Assembly: GCA_020072565.1 (NCBI GenBank)
Contig: JAIQGI010000059.1
Coordinates: forward strand, 1 to 33,555
Source: Terriglobia bacterium
GTDB lineage: Bacteria > Acidobacteriota > UBA6911
DNA length: 33,555 nt
Direction of reading: 5' to 3'
Shown here in pieces: positions 2,142-30,644 of this stretch (positions within the stretch are counted from its first letter, which is position 1; each line of letters opens with the position of its first letter). Both the position numbers and the translations under genes were made by a program. The notes below the pieces were generated by a model, which was not told the DNA's origin, ran no database searches, and was given only the letters and a program-made list of their open reading frames with translations.

Positions 2142-2441
2142 ACATCCTACCTCCAGTGCCGCGATGCGCGGGGATTTCCTCTATCATATCAGACGCGAGT
2201 CAGGCGCATAATGTTCATCGCGGGCAGGAAGGATGTGCCGGACAAACCTTCGGTCTCCTGGCAGAGGGGCTGCGGGGATATGAATCGCGTGCGGAGACAG
2301 GCTCCACCACCGCCTGTCAGCAGATGCGCGGCAACTGCTCGCCGCTGAGCATGTCGACGATACGGCCGGCGCCGATGCGGCTGCGCATTGTGACGAGTCC
2401 GGCGGGATCGGCAGTCACGGAGCCGATCAGACTGGAAACAT

Positions 2442-2593: not shown

Positions 2594-2637
2594 TTAGAAG
2601 TTGAAGCGCATGGCCAGCTGAATCTGGCGCGGAATCG
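2594..2637 (-). pseudogene. C-terminal scrap of a TonB-dependent receptor
   Basis: Read on the minus strand this gives SIPRQIQLAMRFNF followed by TAA. A terminal aromatic residue after RQIQLxxRFxF is the outer-membrane barrel end signature of Oar/TonB-type receptors; compare RNIQAVLRFNF at the end of the intact receptor at 16581-20513. Upstream coding sequence is missing: the REP-like copy at 2639-2657 starts right where the reading frame loses resemblance. Short, but the match to the family end is distinctive. Confidence 0.55.
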
Positions 2638-2638
2638 A

Positions 2639-2657
2639 GGGGACTGACGACGGCAAC
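2639..2657 (+). repeat. REP-like short repeat, copy 2 (left flank of RAYT)
   Basis: GGGGACTGACGACGGCAAC. The identical 19 bases recur at 14705-14723. Inverted copies lie at 14984-15003 and, with one or two changes, at 3743-3760 on the other side of the transposase. Confidence 0.7.
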
Positions 2658-2889
2658 CAAATGATCCAATGTGAATTGGGCGAATCACCGGGCCCTCGGA
2701 AGCGTTTAAATCAAAAAATCAGGCCCAAAATTTGAGAATAAGAGGAAATAATCTCTCCTCGCGCGAAACATCATGGGTGTCTGGTTAACGTGGGGGGGAA
2801 GGATCCTTGCAGCACGCGGGTCTTCTGAATAGATGAACATCGGATCCTTCCATAGGAACCCTGATTTTGATCAAAGAGGAACAAATCCG

Positions 2890-3660
2890 ATGCCCAGATC
2901 CGCACGCATCCTCCTGCCGGGATATATCTATCATCTGACGCACCGATGTCACAACGGCAGTTTCTTTCTCCGATTCAACCTTGTGCGCGCCGAATACCGC
3001 AGAAGGCTATGGCAGTCCGTGCGGCAATTTGAGATCCGGATGTTGAACTATTGCATCACTTCGAATCATACGCATCTGTTGTTGGTTGCGGTGCGGCCAA
3101 ACAGGATCAGCGAAATGATGAGGCATCTCGAAGGAGAATTTGCTTCAAGCTACAACCGCAGGAAAGGAAAGAGCGGAACCTTTTGGAGTGAGCGCTATCA
3201 CAGCACCCTGATTGAAGACGGCGACCATCTTTGGAACTGCATGAACTACATAGATCTGAACATGGTGCGCGCGAGTGTGGTGGGTCACCCCAGGGATTGG
3301 CTTTGGTGCGGTTATCAGGAGATTATGGGCTTTCGACAACGCTATCGTATCTTGGATCTTGAAGGGTTAGTGCACCTTGGGGGAGTGACCGATCAATGCA
3401 GATTCGCTGAATGGTACGATGCCAGGCTCGCAGAGAGGTTAAAGTCCGGGAGCCTGCAGCGCGAGCCCGTTTGGACCGAGAGTATTGCCGTCGGGAGCGA
3501 AGGATTCGTACTACGGATCGCAGCACTGATGAGGGATCGAAAGAAACTGGAAACTATCAGATGGGGCGAAACCTGCTGGTCTGTGCGGGAGCAGGTTGGA
3601 TGCTATGCTATCAGGCAAGATTCTGGAGACCTTCCGCTCGGAGGGCCGATGCAGCCTTAG
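2890..3660 (+). CDS. REP-associated tyrosine transposase (RAYT, Y1/HUH family)
   Basis: A single-strand DNA transposase-like nuclease related to IS200/IS605 TnpA. From the ATG at 2890 it is 256 residues. Residues 1-20 carry the family opening (MPRSAR...GYIYHLTHRC). The HUH motif is H60-T-H62 in NYCITSNHTHLLL, and the likely catalytic tyrosine is Y88 in SSYNRRKGKSGTFWSERY. An upstream in-frame ATG at 2833 exists, but AGAGGA at 2875-2880 fits the 2890 start. RAYTs act on palindromic REP sequences and are usually single copy (known of the family). Here inverted copies of one repeat flank the gene (2639-2657 and 3743-3760), which fits this enzyme acting on them. The C-terminal 100 residues are less conserved and end in GGPMQP. 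Confidence 0.88.
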   Translation: MPRSARILLPGYIYHLTHRCHNGSFFLRFNLVRAEYRRRLWQSVRQFEIRMLNYCITSNHTHLLLVAVRPNRISEMMRHLEGEFASSYNRRKGKSGTFWSERYHSTLIEDGDHLWNCMNYIDLNMVRASVVGHPRDWLWCGYQEIMGFRQRYRILDLEGLVHLGGVTDQCRFAEWYDARLAERLKSGSLQREPVWTESIAVGSEGFVLRIAALMRDRKKLETIRWGETCWSVREQVGCYAIRQDSGDLPLGGPMQP

Positions 3661-3742
3661 ACTGAAAAAACAGCCTCGAAAATTGAAGCTAACGTCCCTC
3701 TGGAACGAGTGCTTTTAGACTTTCCCTATATTTTTTCGGCAC

Positions 3743-3787
3743 TTATCGTCGTCAGTCCCCCATCCCCATCCCGCATCCCCCATCCCC
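3743..3787 (-). repeat. REP-like short repeat, copy 3 (right flank of RAYT) with tandem tail
   Basis: TTATCGTCGTCAGTCCCC is the inverse of the copy at 2639 with small changes. It is followed by about four degenerate tandem CCCCATC-type units up to about 3787. Other copies have CCCCGGTT units in the same place, so the tail seems to be a short tandem array of variable unit. Confidence 0.6.
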
Positions 3788-3808: not shown

Positions 3809-5008
3809 CTAACGGTTCGTCTGGACCTCACTGCACTTGCCGCCGGGGCACTGGGCGGCAATGAGCATGCGAAGAATCGCGTCGTATTCAGATTGTGTGA
3901 CGGACCGGTTCCGTTGTCCATGAGCCGATCTCTGGCTGGTGTCCGTCTTGTGCGCGACTACCATGTCGAGCTTCGGGATAACCGTGATGTACTGCCCGCC
4001 GGCTCCAATACCCGTAAATGCACCCTCAAATGGACCGGGGGAATTGGGAGCATCCCACACCCACCACATGCAGCCATATCCCCAACGGTTTCCGGATCCC
4101 AACGATCGGTAACCGGGCGGGTTCATTTCGTTCAAGGGGGTCACGAGGCTCGAAATCCGCTTCACCCAAGCGCGCGACGCGACCTGATTTTCGCTCCATT
4201 GGCCGCCGCGCAACATCAGAAGCCCTACTCGGGCCATGTCGCGCACGGAAAGAAAAATGTGATATGCCATGTGCTGCGACCGAGTGGCGTCACCGCTCTT
4301 CCGCTGCGCCGAGCGATTGAAGTCCTCCATGCCGATCGGTTTGGCCAGCTCGGTTTCCAGGACATCATAGATGTCCTCGCCGGTGAGTTTCTCAAATACC
4401 GCCCCGGCCGCGTTGAAGTCCCAATTGTTGTAGAGATAATAGGTGCCGGGTTTCTGAGATCCTCGAGGCGGAGCGCTGGCGGTGCTGTCGCCGCTGTTGG
4501 AGGCCGGGTGATAGACTCCGGAGCGCGCCGTGATCAGATTCTCGACGGTGGCTTGGAGTTCCTGGGGGAGCAATCCGCCGACGTCTGTGATGCCGATCTC
4601 TCCAAGGGTCTTGCTGAGCTGGATGGTCCCGTTTTCGACATATTTCCCATACATGATGGCCAGCAGGCTCTTGCGCACGGATGCCAGGTAACTCAGGTGA
4701 GTCATGTCGCCATATTCAAAAAGCGACTTGCCACCAACCGACACCATCATCGATGTGGTATCCAGCGAACCGACCCATGCCCGCAGCGCGTTCAAGCGCT
4801 CCGACGAATAGCCGATCGACTCCGGCTTCTCGATCTTGTCCCAGGTTTTCCCGGGGAAAACAGGCTGGGCGGAAGCCTGGCCCGGCTTCAATTGGGCGTA
4901 GGCGACCGTTCCAGAATTGATTTGGGAGGACAGCAAAACCACGAAGAAGAGCAACCCTGCCCGGAGAAATAATCCTCCGGCACGGCACATCCGGATACCT
5001 GTTCGCAT
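3809..5008 (-). CDS. Exported serine hydrolase, beta-lactamase/penicillin-binding-protein fold (class C type)
   Basis: 399 residues with a signal peptide (hydrophobic about 12-28, AYAQ end near 38). The nucleophile motif S110-V-R-K113 sits in YLASVRKSLLA and the second motif Y193-N-N195 in YLYNNWDFNAAG. The third motif is probably HKT in VVAHKTDTS near the C-terminus. Length and motif order fit the Pfam Beta-lactamase group (esterases, D-aminopeptidases, DD-peptidases), so substrate and true beta-lactam activity cannot be told. The C-terminal tail holds CPGGKC, a possible disulfide. It is transcribed alone; the downstream end faces the RAYT repeat. It is unlike the second serine hydrolase at 29285 in motif details. 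Confidence 0.88.
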   Translation of the reverse strand: MRTGIRMCRAGGLFLRAGLLFFVVLLSSQINSGTVAYAQLKPGQASAQPVFPGKTWDKIEKPESIGYSSERLNALRAWVGSLDTTSMMVSVGGKSLFEYGDMTHLSYLASVRKSLLAIMYGKYVENGTIQLSKTLGEIGITDVGGLLPQELQATVENLITARSGVYHPASNSGDSTASAPPRGSQKPGTYYLYNNWDFNAAGAVFEKLTGEDIYDVLETELAKPIGMEDFNRSAQRKSGDATRSQHMAYHIFLSVRDMARVGLLMLRGGQWSENQVASRAWVKRISSLVTPLNEMNPPGYRSLGSGNRWGYGCMWWVWDAPNSPGPFEGAFTGIGAGGQYITVIPKLDMVVAHKTDTSQRSAHGQRNRSVTQSEYDAILRMLIAAQCPGGKCSEVQTNR

Positions 5009-6686: not shown

Positions 6687-7225
6687 GAGACATGCTCCTT
6701 TCCGTTGTACCATTCAGTGAGCCGGTGCGTCTCCATCGGCCCGTGATTTCCACTTCTATCATGTATACAACGTACGCCTTGCGCCGGTTGACAAGAAAAA
6801 TCGGCGAGCCGGCACAGCAGAGGCGACACTGAGAATTTCGCGCTGTCCAAATTAGCTATAAAACCGGCATAAGCGCCGCGTAAAGACTTGAAAACAAATC
6901 AGTGTGGAATTCGGTCCGCATCGAGGTTACCTGCCGGGATTTCGGCCCTTCGGGCCTCCATTGAGGCTCCCGTGAGTATATCGGTGCCTGGTTATCCTGT
7001 CCCTGCGTGCATGCAAGAAACGACATTACAAAAAAGGACAGGATAACCAGGCACCGGGATTATGTCGGCATTCAGGCGCAGAACGCGGAAGCCATGGCAA
7101 CCAATCCTGGCATGGACCCGATTTTCGATGCACCATCGCTCGGAAACACCGTCCGCGGAGTAGCGCCGCATTCCTCATACTAAAAACGCGCGGGCAGCGT
7201 CAATAATACCGAAGGGTAACGAAAG
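6687..7225. other. Intergenic region between two divergent ECF sigma transcription units
   Basis: 539 bases holding the start regions of both divergent units, a long inverted repeat (6982-7056) and a coding-like scrap. The scrap, plus-strand 7058-7183, reads 41 residues (DYVGIQAQNAEAMATNPG... ending GVAPHSSY) to a TAA, looks like a gene C-terminus, and begins exactly at the repeat. No clear sigma-70 or ECF promoter could be picked with confidence. Confidence 0.4.
6982..7056. repeat. Perfect 21-bp inverted repeat (REP pair)
   Basis: The arm GGTGCCTGGTTATCCTGTCC (with a preceding C) at 6982-7002 is exactly inverted at 7036-7056, with a 33-base spacer. Both arms carry GGACAGGATAACCAGGCACC pointing away from the spacer. 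It resembles other REP-pair units in this window in layout but has a different core. It could form a long hairpin in single-stranded DNA or RNA. Confidence 0.8.
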
Positions 7226-14704: not shown

Positions 14705-14723
14705 GGGGACTGACGACGGCAAC
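14705..14723 (+). repeat. REP-like short repeat, identical to RAYT left-flank copy
   Basis: GGGGACTGACGACGGCAAC, the same 19 bases as 2639-2657. Confidence 0.75.
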
Positions 14724-14896
14724 TGCTTGAATGCGCTTGTGGAACCGCACTTCAGATGCCTCTTTGAGGGGCGTAGAATCAAAATTGCGGGCCCATTTTT
14801 CAAGCTAAGGCCCGCGCCCGACGCATCAGAATGATTCCCGACAACACGGCTCCCACTCTCCCGAGCTGTTGAGATTAGTCACGCATAGTCATCCGC

Positions 14897-14934
14897 CTTA
14901 CAGGCAATAATCAAGCCTGTTTTCTTGCTGTAAG
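14897..14934 (+). other. Two mutually exclusive small hairpins
   Basis: ACAGGC (14900-14905) can pair with GCCTGT (14915-14920), followed by TTTCTT, which resembles a weak terminator. Alternatively CTTACAG (14897-14903) can pair with CTGTAAG (14928-14934). The two stems share ACAG. This may be chance. Confidence 0.25.
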
Positions 14935-14983
14935 CGTAAGTCTTGAGGGTGAAAAGTTGTCGAAATATTATCTGATCAGCACC

Positions 14984-15018
14984 TTGCCGTCGTCAGTCCC
15001 CGGTTCCCCGGTTCCCAG
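14984..15018 (-). repeat. REP-like short repeat with CCCCGGTT tandem tail, inverted copy
   Basis: TTGCCGTCGTCAGTCCCC is the inverse of 14705-14722. It is followed by GGTTCCCCGGTTCCC, a two-unit tandem tail like the one after the copy at 30610-30627. Confidence 0.7.
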
Positions 15019-19500: not shown

Positions 19501-20513
19501 GAGATACGACCAAGTACAACTCTTCCAACTTCGGCAGCAGCACATTCACGACTTATCTGGCACAGTTCAACCCGAATCCGGGTTCCTACGCCAGCGCTCT
19601 GTACGGTAACGCAACCTATCGCACCAATGCAACCAATGCCGGATTGCCTGTCAATGAATTCCAGGTCAATCCGACCGTCTCCTCGGGCGGTGCCTACATT
19701 ATGACCAATGGCGGTCGCAACTACTATGATTCCATGGTGGTGGAGCTGCGCCGCCGCTTGTCCAGGGGATTGCTGGTACAGGCCAGCTACGTCTGGGCCA
19801 AAAATCTTGATCTGAACCGCGTATCGTTCCGTTCGGATTATGTGAAAACCATAGGCACGACCCTGCCGCATACCTTCAAGGTCAACTGGATTTATGAGCT
19901 GCCGTTGGGCAGCGGCAAAATGCTGCTTGGCGGCAGCCACGGCGTGCTCGACCGCGTGATCGGCGGCTGGCAGTTCATGGGTGTCAGCCGCTGGCAGAGC
20001 GGCACCCGGCTGGCCCTCGGCAATGTCAGGCTGGTCGGCATGACGCTCGACGACGTGCGCAATCTCGCCGGGCTGCGCTTCGATGATGTAAACAGGCAGC
20101 TGTATTACTTCCCTGCGGACGTCATCGCCAACACAATCGCGGCCTATAACGTCAGCGCAACCTCATCGACCGGCTACAGCCCCGCTTACGGTGTCCCCAC
20201 CGGTCGCTATTTTGCGCCGGCAAACAGCAACTACTCGGTCGACGGCTGCCTCCAGGTCGTCACCGGAGACTGTGCACCGTACAGCAACTATATCCGGGGC
20301 CCGAGGTTCATCAACTTCGATTTGAGTCTGGTGAAGCAAATCCGGTTCACCGAATCGAAGAACTTCGAGATCCGCGCCGAGATGTTGAATGCCTTTAACT
20401 ATGTGACCTTCAACGCCGCCATGTGCGCCAGCAGCAGCGCGTCATGCGGCCAGTTCTCAGGCACTCAGAGCGGCCCGCGCAACATTCAGGCCGTCCTACG
20501 CTTCAACTTCTAA
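16581..20513 (+). CDS. TonB-dependent receptor, Oar-like, with carboxypeptidase-regulatory-like domain
   Basis: 1310 residues. GAGGA lies ten bases before the ATG. A signal peptide covers 1-24 (ending LCHA, then QVATSSS). Residues about 28-110 form the Ig-like CarboxypepD_reg domain (GTVKDQSGGFIPGADVLVKN, then GVFHIPALSPGTYTATV). A TonB plug follows at about 120-240 (NLPGVNTTSSARNATVMGLP, TIDGTNTQDN, EEMTVSTATPGSESSGQGA). The rest is a large beta-barrel rich in aromatic and Asn/Gly residues, ending in AVLRFNF, the outer-membrane assembly signal. Proteins of this Oar group are numerous in Acidobacteriota and are thought to import or bind large substrates; the ligand here is unknown. It is transcribed alone, with a strong hairpin right after the stop. 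Confidence 0.93.
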   Translation: MKKIAFRMVMALLLIASVSALCHAQVATSSSLVGTVKDQSGGFIPGADVLVKNNNTGAEYKAVTGEDGVFHIPALSPGTYTATVTVPNFKQAIVKDIVLTAGNPGAITVTLQVGGTNEVVTVQANAEIVQSQTATITTTMNVSQISSLPLSTRSALDFLVNLPGVNTTSSARNATVMGLPNATINITIDGTNTQDNYLKGSIGGDGMFSMIMPRIDSVEEMTVSTATPGSESSGQGAVQIKFVTRSGNNDYHGSFYEYHQNSWLNANTWANNRDKAPAYNGTGVPCTAAQMANEFDKCKAARNKLILNQYGGRFGGPISVPKWLFGPLGFSGKDRAFFFVNYEELRQPAQVTRTRTIFNPLVDQGIFPYTVGSTVQQVNLFTLAAANGQTATWDPTIQKLLGDIRNVSQQIGSTKQQTNPALMDYVFVNRAPSKRKSPVVRGDFNITSKQRVELSWYFNQYPQTVDITNSVDPAYPTFPNFGTQGGNRFSGSVALRSTLTPRIVNEARFGFIGGGTLFWPDVNAGQFATSGIGNQDGFALSLSPISNAYIANGPERRNTPNESINDTLSWSKGSHNISIGGSFTNVALWIQDFTYTVPSISFGVNTSYDPARFMFDATNGPKNFQGSSPTQYTQAQQIYALMTGRVTAINGNAYLNEASNQYAYNGDFTRRGHMREIGAFVSDSWRLRPGFTLNYGVRWEGQLPFVPLNNVYTFNTIQDLWGLSGVGNLFKPGTLTGTAPTYKQYVAGSPAYNTSYKGFAPSVGFAWTPKGEGFLKRIMGDSGQTVLRGGFSLAYNRNGMYEYDTMFSGNVGPSISATRNVNNGNLVSGVGSDTWPLLFSQKSRLGPPSFPTTPTYPLSGSSPSDQVNVFDPGLKIPYTLSWSFGVQREITKDMVIEVRYAASRNLQAWNYRNLNETVLVENGFLSEFKLAMANLKANQAAGKGNTFAYTGAAGTSPLPITLAYFSGISASQAGDTTKYNSSNFGSSTFTTYLAQFNPNPGSYASALYGNATYRTNATNAGLPVNEFQVNPTVSSGGAYIMTNGGRNYYDSMVVELRRRLSRGLLVQASYVWAKNLDLNRVSFRSDYVKTIGTTLPHTFKVNWIYELPLGSGKMLLGGSHGVLDRVIGGWQFMGVSRWQSGTRLALGNVRLVGMTLDDVRNLAGLRFDDVNRQLYYFPADVIANTIAAYNVSATSSTGYSPAYGVPTGRYFAPANSNYSVDGCLQVVTGDCAPYSNYIRGPRFINFDLSLVKQIRFTESKNFEIRAEMLNAFNYVTFNAAMCASSSASCGQFSGTQSGPRNIQAVLRFNF

Positions 20514-30448: not shown

Positions 30449-30533
30449 CCTGGGCCGCGGGATCCCGGCATGGCATCGGCAGGGATGCGCCCCGGAGCAC
30501 GCAACCATGGCTTGCGAGCCGATTCAAACAACT

Positions 30534-30644
30534 GGGGACGCTGACCGGTTTAGGCAAGCACCCTAACACAGAATCCGGGGAAGGTGATTGGGACTCATTG
30601 TCGAGTGAAAAACCGGTCAGCGTCCCCGGTTTCCCCGGTTTCCT
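30534..30644. repeat. Perfect 18-bp inverted repeat (REP pair) with tandem tail
   Basis: GGGGACGCTGACCGGTTT at 30534-30551 is exactly inverted at 30610-30627, 58 bases apart. The right arm is followed by GGTTTCCCCGGTTTCC, a tail of two CCCCGGTTT units like the copy at 14984. The unit ends about 35 bases before the truncated TPR gene. Confidence 0.8.

Follow-up and report, generated by a model that had tools for sequence, protein, structure and literature searches.

The window, that is, the whole stretch of 33,555 nucleotides that was analysed (contig JAIQGI010000059.1 of a Terriglobia bacterium), contains a small mobile element of an established type, the TIRtron (Table 1). The gene of a 256-aa Y1/HuH transposase (2890-3660) lies between two GGGGACTGACGACG tips in inverted orientation, at 2639 and 3760, which form the actual ends of a ∼1.1-kb unit. 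The right tip agrees with the left in 14 exact bases and in 16 of 19 positions in all; the score of the inverted pair is 14, whereas shuffling these flanks 200 times gave a 95th percentile of 10 and 0 cases that reached 14. Together with the Y1_Tnp match of the gene product, this bears out the original prediction of a RAYT gene with inverted copies of one repeat on either side. The same prediction called the layout rarely seen, which does not hold: among the 26 orthologous genes for which the sequence on either side could be read, 20 have the same layout, in units of 830-1148 bp, and the kind was published by Di Nocera et al. in 2013, who introduced the names TIRtron for the unit and TIRYT for its enzyme and listed the Acidobacteria as one bearer group (PMC3733652).

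Table 1. Features of the unit, its left neighbour and a gene-less element with the same ends (positions in the window)
Feature	Position	Strand	Basis
TonB-dependent receptor remnant, last 12 codons (PRQIQLAMRFNF) and stop	2594-2632	-	79% to receptor end at 20513
Probable true left boundary, ∼7 nt beyond left tip	2632-2638		Flanks of related copies; TonB homology stops at 2632
Left terminal tip, GGGGACTGACGACGGCAAC	2639-2657	+	Sequence search, alignment of ends
Left subterminal palindromic box, CTTA-N30-TAAG type	2704-2742	+	Alignment of 47 ends
TIRYT/RAYT transposase, 256 aa, HuH H60-T-H62, tyrosine Y120	2890-3660	+	Pfam, NCBIfam, ortholog alignment, PDB profile search, fold model
Right subterminal palindromic box, overlapping the gene's last codons	3656-3694	-	Alignment of 47 ends
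Right terminal tip, inverted, GGGGACTGACGACGATAAG	3742-3760	-	Sequence comparison, shuffle test
Gene-less 297-bp element, same inverted ends, in a 72-84% identical family	14705-15001		Repeat search, alignment

The transposase matches Pfam Y1_Tnp (E 3e-10) and the NCBIfam model of REP-associated tyrosine transposases (E 3.7e-19; 69.1 bits, under the model's curated cut-off of 80). There is an upstream ATG at 2833, but the aligned orthologs have their start, MP(R/K/N), where the window gene reaches 2890. The residues H60, H62 and Y120 are invariant across 23 aligned proteins. A PDB profile search with the protein matched ISDra2, IS608 and TnpA-REP, and the best solved match of its AlphaFold model (pLDDT 87.8) is 4er8, a RAYT bound to a REP hairpin (TM 0.71 by target); the model has an extra C-terminal region, to residue 237. 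With regard to the motifs, the HuH reads H-T-H in the window protein and in 5 of the 22 other aligned orthologs, where a hydrophobic residue is usual in the middle; the tyrosine is followed by N-M instead of N-P in all aligned orthologs. The gene is single copy in the window genome, where the next paralog is 32% identical. Its closest relatives among those fetched come from Acidobacteria MAGs, and orthologs are scattered across several phyla.

Do the same ends occur elsewhere in the genome? They do, on gene-less elements and with sharp junctions. The 14-mer GGGGACTGACRACG has 24 exact occurrences in the 7.46 Mb window genome (a draft of 135 contigs), and its reversed control has 0. Gene-less paired elements of 176-470 bp end in the same tips in this genome and in two related ones: the 19 elements compared (8 from the window genome, 2 from the same-genus genome G001 and 9 from G012, of another genus) supply 38 ends, in which GGGACTGAC is invariant (38/38) and the first G is kept in 36, followed mostly by [GA]-A-C-G-[GC]-[CT]-A-A. 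The 297-bp subfamily of the window genome has an identity of 72-84% and a 176-bp deletion form; other gene-less subfamilies measure 253-255 bp (86%) and, in G012, 242-243 bp (88-91%). Many tips in the window genome are single, without a detectable partner. At one site (L021 719-3434; C32:11718-14433), two inverted like ends of the 297-bp subfamily lie 2.7 kb apart and enclose ORFs without a Pfam match, an arrangement that is possibly a composite or cargo-bearing element. The window itself holds two further repeats. The one at 6982-7056 has two perfectly inverted 21-bp arms, 33 nt apart (CGGTGCCTGGTTATCCTGTCC), and looks like another repeat family; at 30530-30631 is a 22-bp inverted repeat with a 58-nt spacer and a GGGGAC tip of a different type (AACTGGGGACGCTGACCGGTTT), possibly the ends of another TIRYT lineage.

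Further in, ∼70-110 nt from the tip, a palindromic box, GCTTAnAnCCAAAAAnnnGGCCCGnTTTTTGAnTnTAAG, is common to 47 ends. It is conserved as a palindromic sequence only, and a structure-maintained hairpin is not supported: folding as ssDNA gave a mean z of -0.47, RNAalifold found 0 pairs, and the counts of covarying pairs did not exceed those of column shuffles, though they were well over those of slid partners. Because the box is palindromic, its orientation is split among the 19 elements, direct fitting better in 8 and inverted in 11; the idea that it stands direct at both ends, as in IS200/IS605, was dropped on this pairwise comparison.

As for the DNA outside the tips, the subfamily copies agree in 75% of comparisons at positions -1 to -6 (in 20 of 20 at -3 and -5) and in 25%, the level of chance, at -11 to -60. 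Given this fall to chance, either the copied unit ends ∼7 nt beyond the GGGG or insertion picks such sites. The outward flanks in the window genome carry GGGA 20 times on the tip strand versus once on the other, a bias that may reflect a target preference or leftovers of earlier tips. A tandem or partial tip copy lies directly outside the real tip at L134 2463-2495, L147 1466-1505, L039 776-821, L108 3749-3786 and L079 ∼1035-1052; such extra outer tips, seen in several lineages, give the impression that elements settle next to a tip already present.

How many tips a genome has goes with its RAYT lineage. The tips were counted in 38 genomes, at distances from genus to class level and, like all the genomes compared, MAGs or drafts: the window genome has 24, G012 has 19, G001 has 8 and all others have 0-1, as does the reversed control. 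The RAYT of G012 is 61% identical to that of the window, and G001 has no cognate RAYT above threshold. At the corresponding positions, more distant orthologs are flanked by other tips, among them GGGGACGGACCAG, GGGGTCGGACCAC, GGGGGCTGCCCTCG and GACGCTTCGCGTC. The window unit (genome G000) and the G012 unit have no DNA similarity outside the transposase gene. A second TIRYT in G012 (L051/L113), 54% identical to the query and apparently C-terminally truncated, has a GGGGTCGGACCA tip. In G006 and G009, two species of another genus, the unit occupies the same locus, with a phenylacetate-CoA ligase-like gene on one side and an nrfH-like gene on the other (names read from translations); hence the lineage can also be vertically inherited. 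The right tip at this locus (L039 1905-1922 in G009, and likewise in G006) falls inside the first codons of the nrfH-like gene and so encodes part of the N-terminus.

The search for an orthologous empty site of the window unit found none. The only same-genus genome, G001, has a 76% ortholog of the neighbouring beta-lactamase without the unit downstream; the remaining surroundings show no synteny, and G001 was rejected as an empty site since the genes around this ortholog differ. The left-hand protein and the 583-aa protein beside the 297-bp element have G001 homologs at only 24-41%. The genome G008 was likewise set aside as an empty site for the G006/G009 locus: its nrfH matches at 90%, but a different gene lies beyond.

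Another question is whether such a unit can move by itself. Kiritimatiellae bacterium STCSWMC_123 (G060), whose RAYT protein is 40% identical to that of the window, has two complete units that are 97.6% identical from one tip to the other (965 bp). Their flanks are unrelated, and the contigs on which they lie have similar coverage (5.09 and 5.66). Two further places hold forms with an internal deletion that retain both ends: 1-317 is fused to 934-968 in one, 1-281 to 863-968 in the other. Numerous single ends, each ∼110 nt, are dispersed in the same genome. These copies are the strongest sequence evidence on this question and are read here as autonomous movement with deletion derivatives, and the duplication of a whole unit in this distant relative suggests that such units can move themselves. 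None of the paralog pairs compared in the other ortholog-bearing genomes is near-identical, so that such activity is uncommon or short-lived. For the self-mobile unit of the original prediction, the support comes from the relative; the window copy, being the only one in its genome, gives none for its own mobility.

How the window unit came to its present place is a separate matter. It had been proposed to have landed in the TonB receptor gene, and the 39-bp receptor remnant does stop at 2632, 6 nt short of the left tip, which fits a unit boundary ∼7 nt outside that tip. Receptor sequence is found on the left only, as the last codons and stop; on the right there is none, and the next gene encodes the beta-lactamase (3809-5008). 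Further to the left, just beyond the remnant, lies a second orphan 3′ gene end (2317-2429, minus strand), which over 113 bp matches the 3′-terminal 113 bp of an intact hypE-like gene with AIRS domains (C13:145577-145689) at 86% identity and ends exactly at the stop. Because this truncated fragment also lies there, the left side has the look of a region littered with the remains of deletions, and an insertion into the receptor gene is improbable.

Are the tips connected with the transposase at all? A repeat that is due to chance or has a regulatory role, such as a protein-binding site, would suit the many single tips, but it is very hard to reconcile with the matching of tips and RAYTs by lineage, with the conserved inverted pairing and sharp junctions, and with the duplication of the gene and both ends as one block in the relative; such a reading is most improbable. 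More serious is the view that the RAYT is domesticated and immobile, kept for a host function, with the tips as fixed recognition sites and the gene-less elements as old relics. The single copy in the window genome and the retention of the unit at the same locus by two species of another genus agree with it, and the RAYTs of Pseudomonas and E. coli are single copy and apparently incapable of self-mobilization (PMC3116915). However, this view does not sit well with two near-identical complete Kiritimatiellae units at unrelated sites, accompanied by deletion derivatives, nor with the lack of DNA homology between the G000 and G012 units outside the transposase gene or the spread of orthologs over several phyla. 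On the whole, domestication is the unlikelier account, if one that keeps some weight.

The reading preferred here, with high confidence, is that the unit at ∼2632-3767 is a TIRtron with a TIRYT, similar to subclass 2.1 of Quentin, and its cognate inverted ends. Its likely working is this. On single-stranded DNA, the transposase would recognise each end by the tip together with the subterminal box, and the pairing of the two inverted tips would bring the ends together. Tyrosine 120 would cut near the tips, and the excised strand would be rejoined elsewhere; no target duplication would be expected. In the window genome, any present-day activity of the transposase would most likely be exerted in trans, on the few gene-less elements with the same ends, and its own unit would stay single copy.

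A broader proposal concerns TIRYT transposases in general, hitherto treated as domesticated or of unknown mobility. They may form true autonomous inverted-tip transposons, in which the unit is copied as a whole, MITE-like derivatives arise by internal deletion, and tip and protein evolve together across phyla; this is put forward tentatively, its chances being somewhat below even. If true, TIRYTs would represent a still-living link from IS200/IS605 to the REPIN/RAYT state, and would bear on how IS200-like transposons became single-copy RAYTs serving gene-less repeats. With one genome in which a single copy would serve gene-less elements, and a relative with duplicated units and derivatives, this transition becomes testable, and cognate pairs of tip and protein are in hand from several lineages.

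The window unit can be compared with several known systems. With IS200/IS605 (IS608, ISDra2) it shares the HuH/Y1 fold and, in one relative, copying at the level of the unit. Unlike that family, with its same-strand hairpin ends, it has inverted tips, although its palindromic box is split between direct and inverted orientation, and no TnpB was seen; multiple near-identical complete copies are absent from the window genome and present only in G060. Like REPINs, for which mobilisation in trans by a single-copy RAYT has been proposed (PMC3116915), the gene-less elements are inverted doublets with an end that is specific to the lineage. The window family differs from REPINs in its far fewer copies (tens), its longer doublets (176-470 bp), the missing GTAG foot and the lack of a demonstrated hairpin: by the classical REP/REPIN definition, the 38 ends gave neither a GTAG-foot consensus nor support for a hairpin.

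At the level of the protein, Quentin et al. in 2018 assigned 20 of 26 described TIRYTs to TnpA-Y1 subclass 2.1 (PMC6006769), which is RAYT group 1 of Bertels. Proteins of this subclass have ∼240 aa and a C-terminal extension (PMC6006769), to which the extra C-terminal region of the window model may correspond; NH-x-H and Y-x-x-x-N motifs, low copy number and patchy spread are common to both. Where the subclass has NHVH and YIELNP (PMC6006769), the window protein has NHTH and YIDLNM; in its motif Y120-I-D-L-N124-M, the N is kept and M stands in the place of P. The same survey reported no evidence of mobility for class 2 genes (PMC6006769), whereas the G060 copies are sequence evidence of that kind.

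The closest counterpart is the TIRtron, a RAYT-like gene between terminal inverted repeats unrelated to GTAG REPs (PMC3733652), and the window unit has both defining features, the RAYT-like gene and the bracketing inverted repeats. The terminal repeats of TIRtrons form families of singles and dimers, dispersed in some species (PMC3733652), and the window ends are likewise a dispersed family. Some TIRtrons, not all, carry a GGGGWSAS motif (PMC3733652), which the window tip GGGGACTG fits at 7 of 8 positions, with T for A at position 7. Unlike the described TIRtrons, the window unit has a tip of its own family (GGGGACTGAC), and it goes beyond them in two respects: a conserved subterminal box ∼70-110 nt in, and a complete unit duplicated in a relative.
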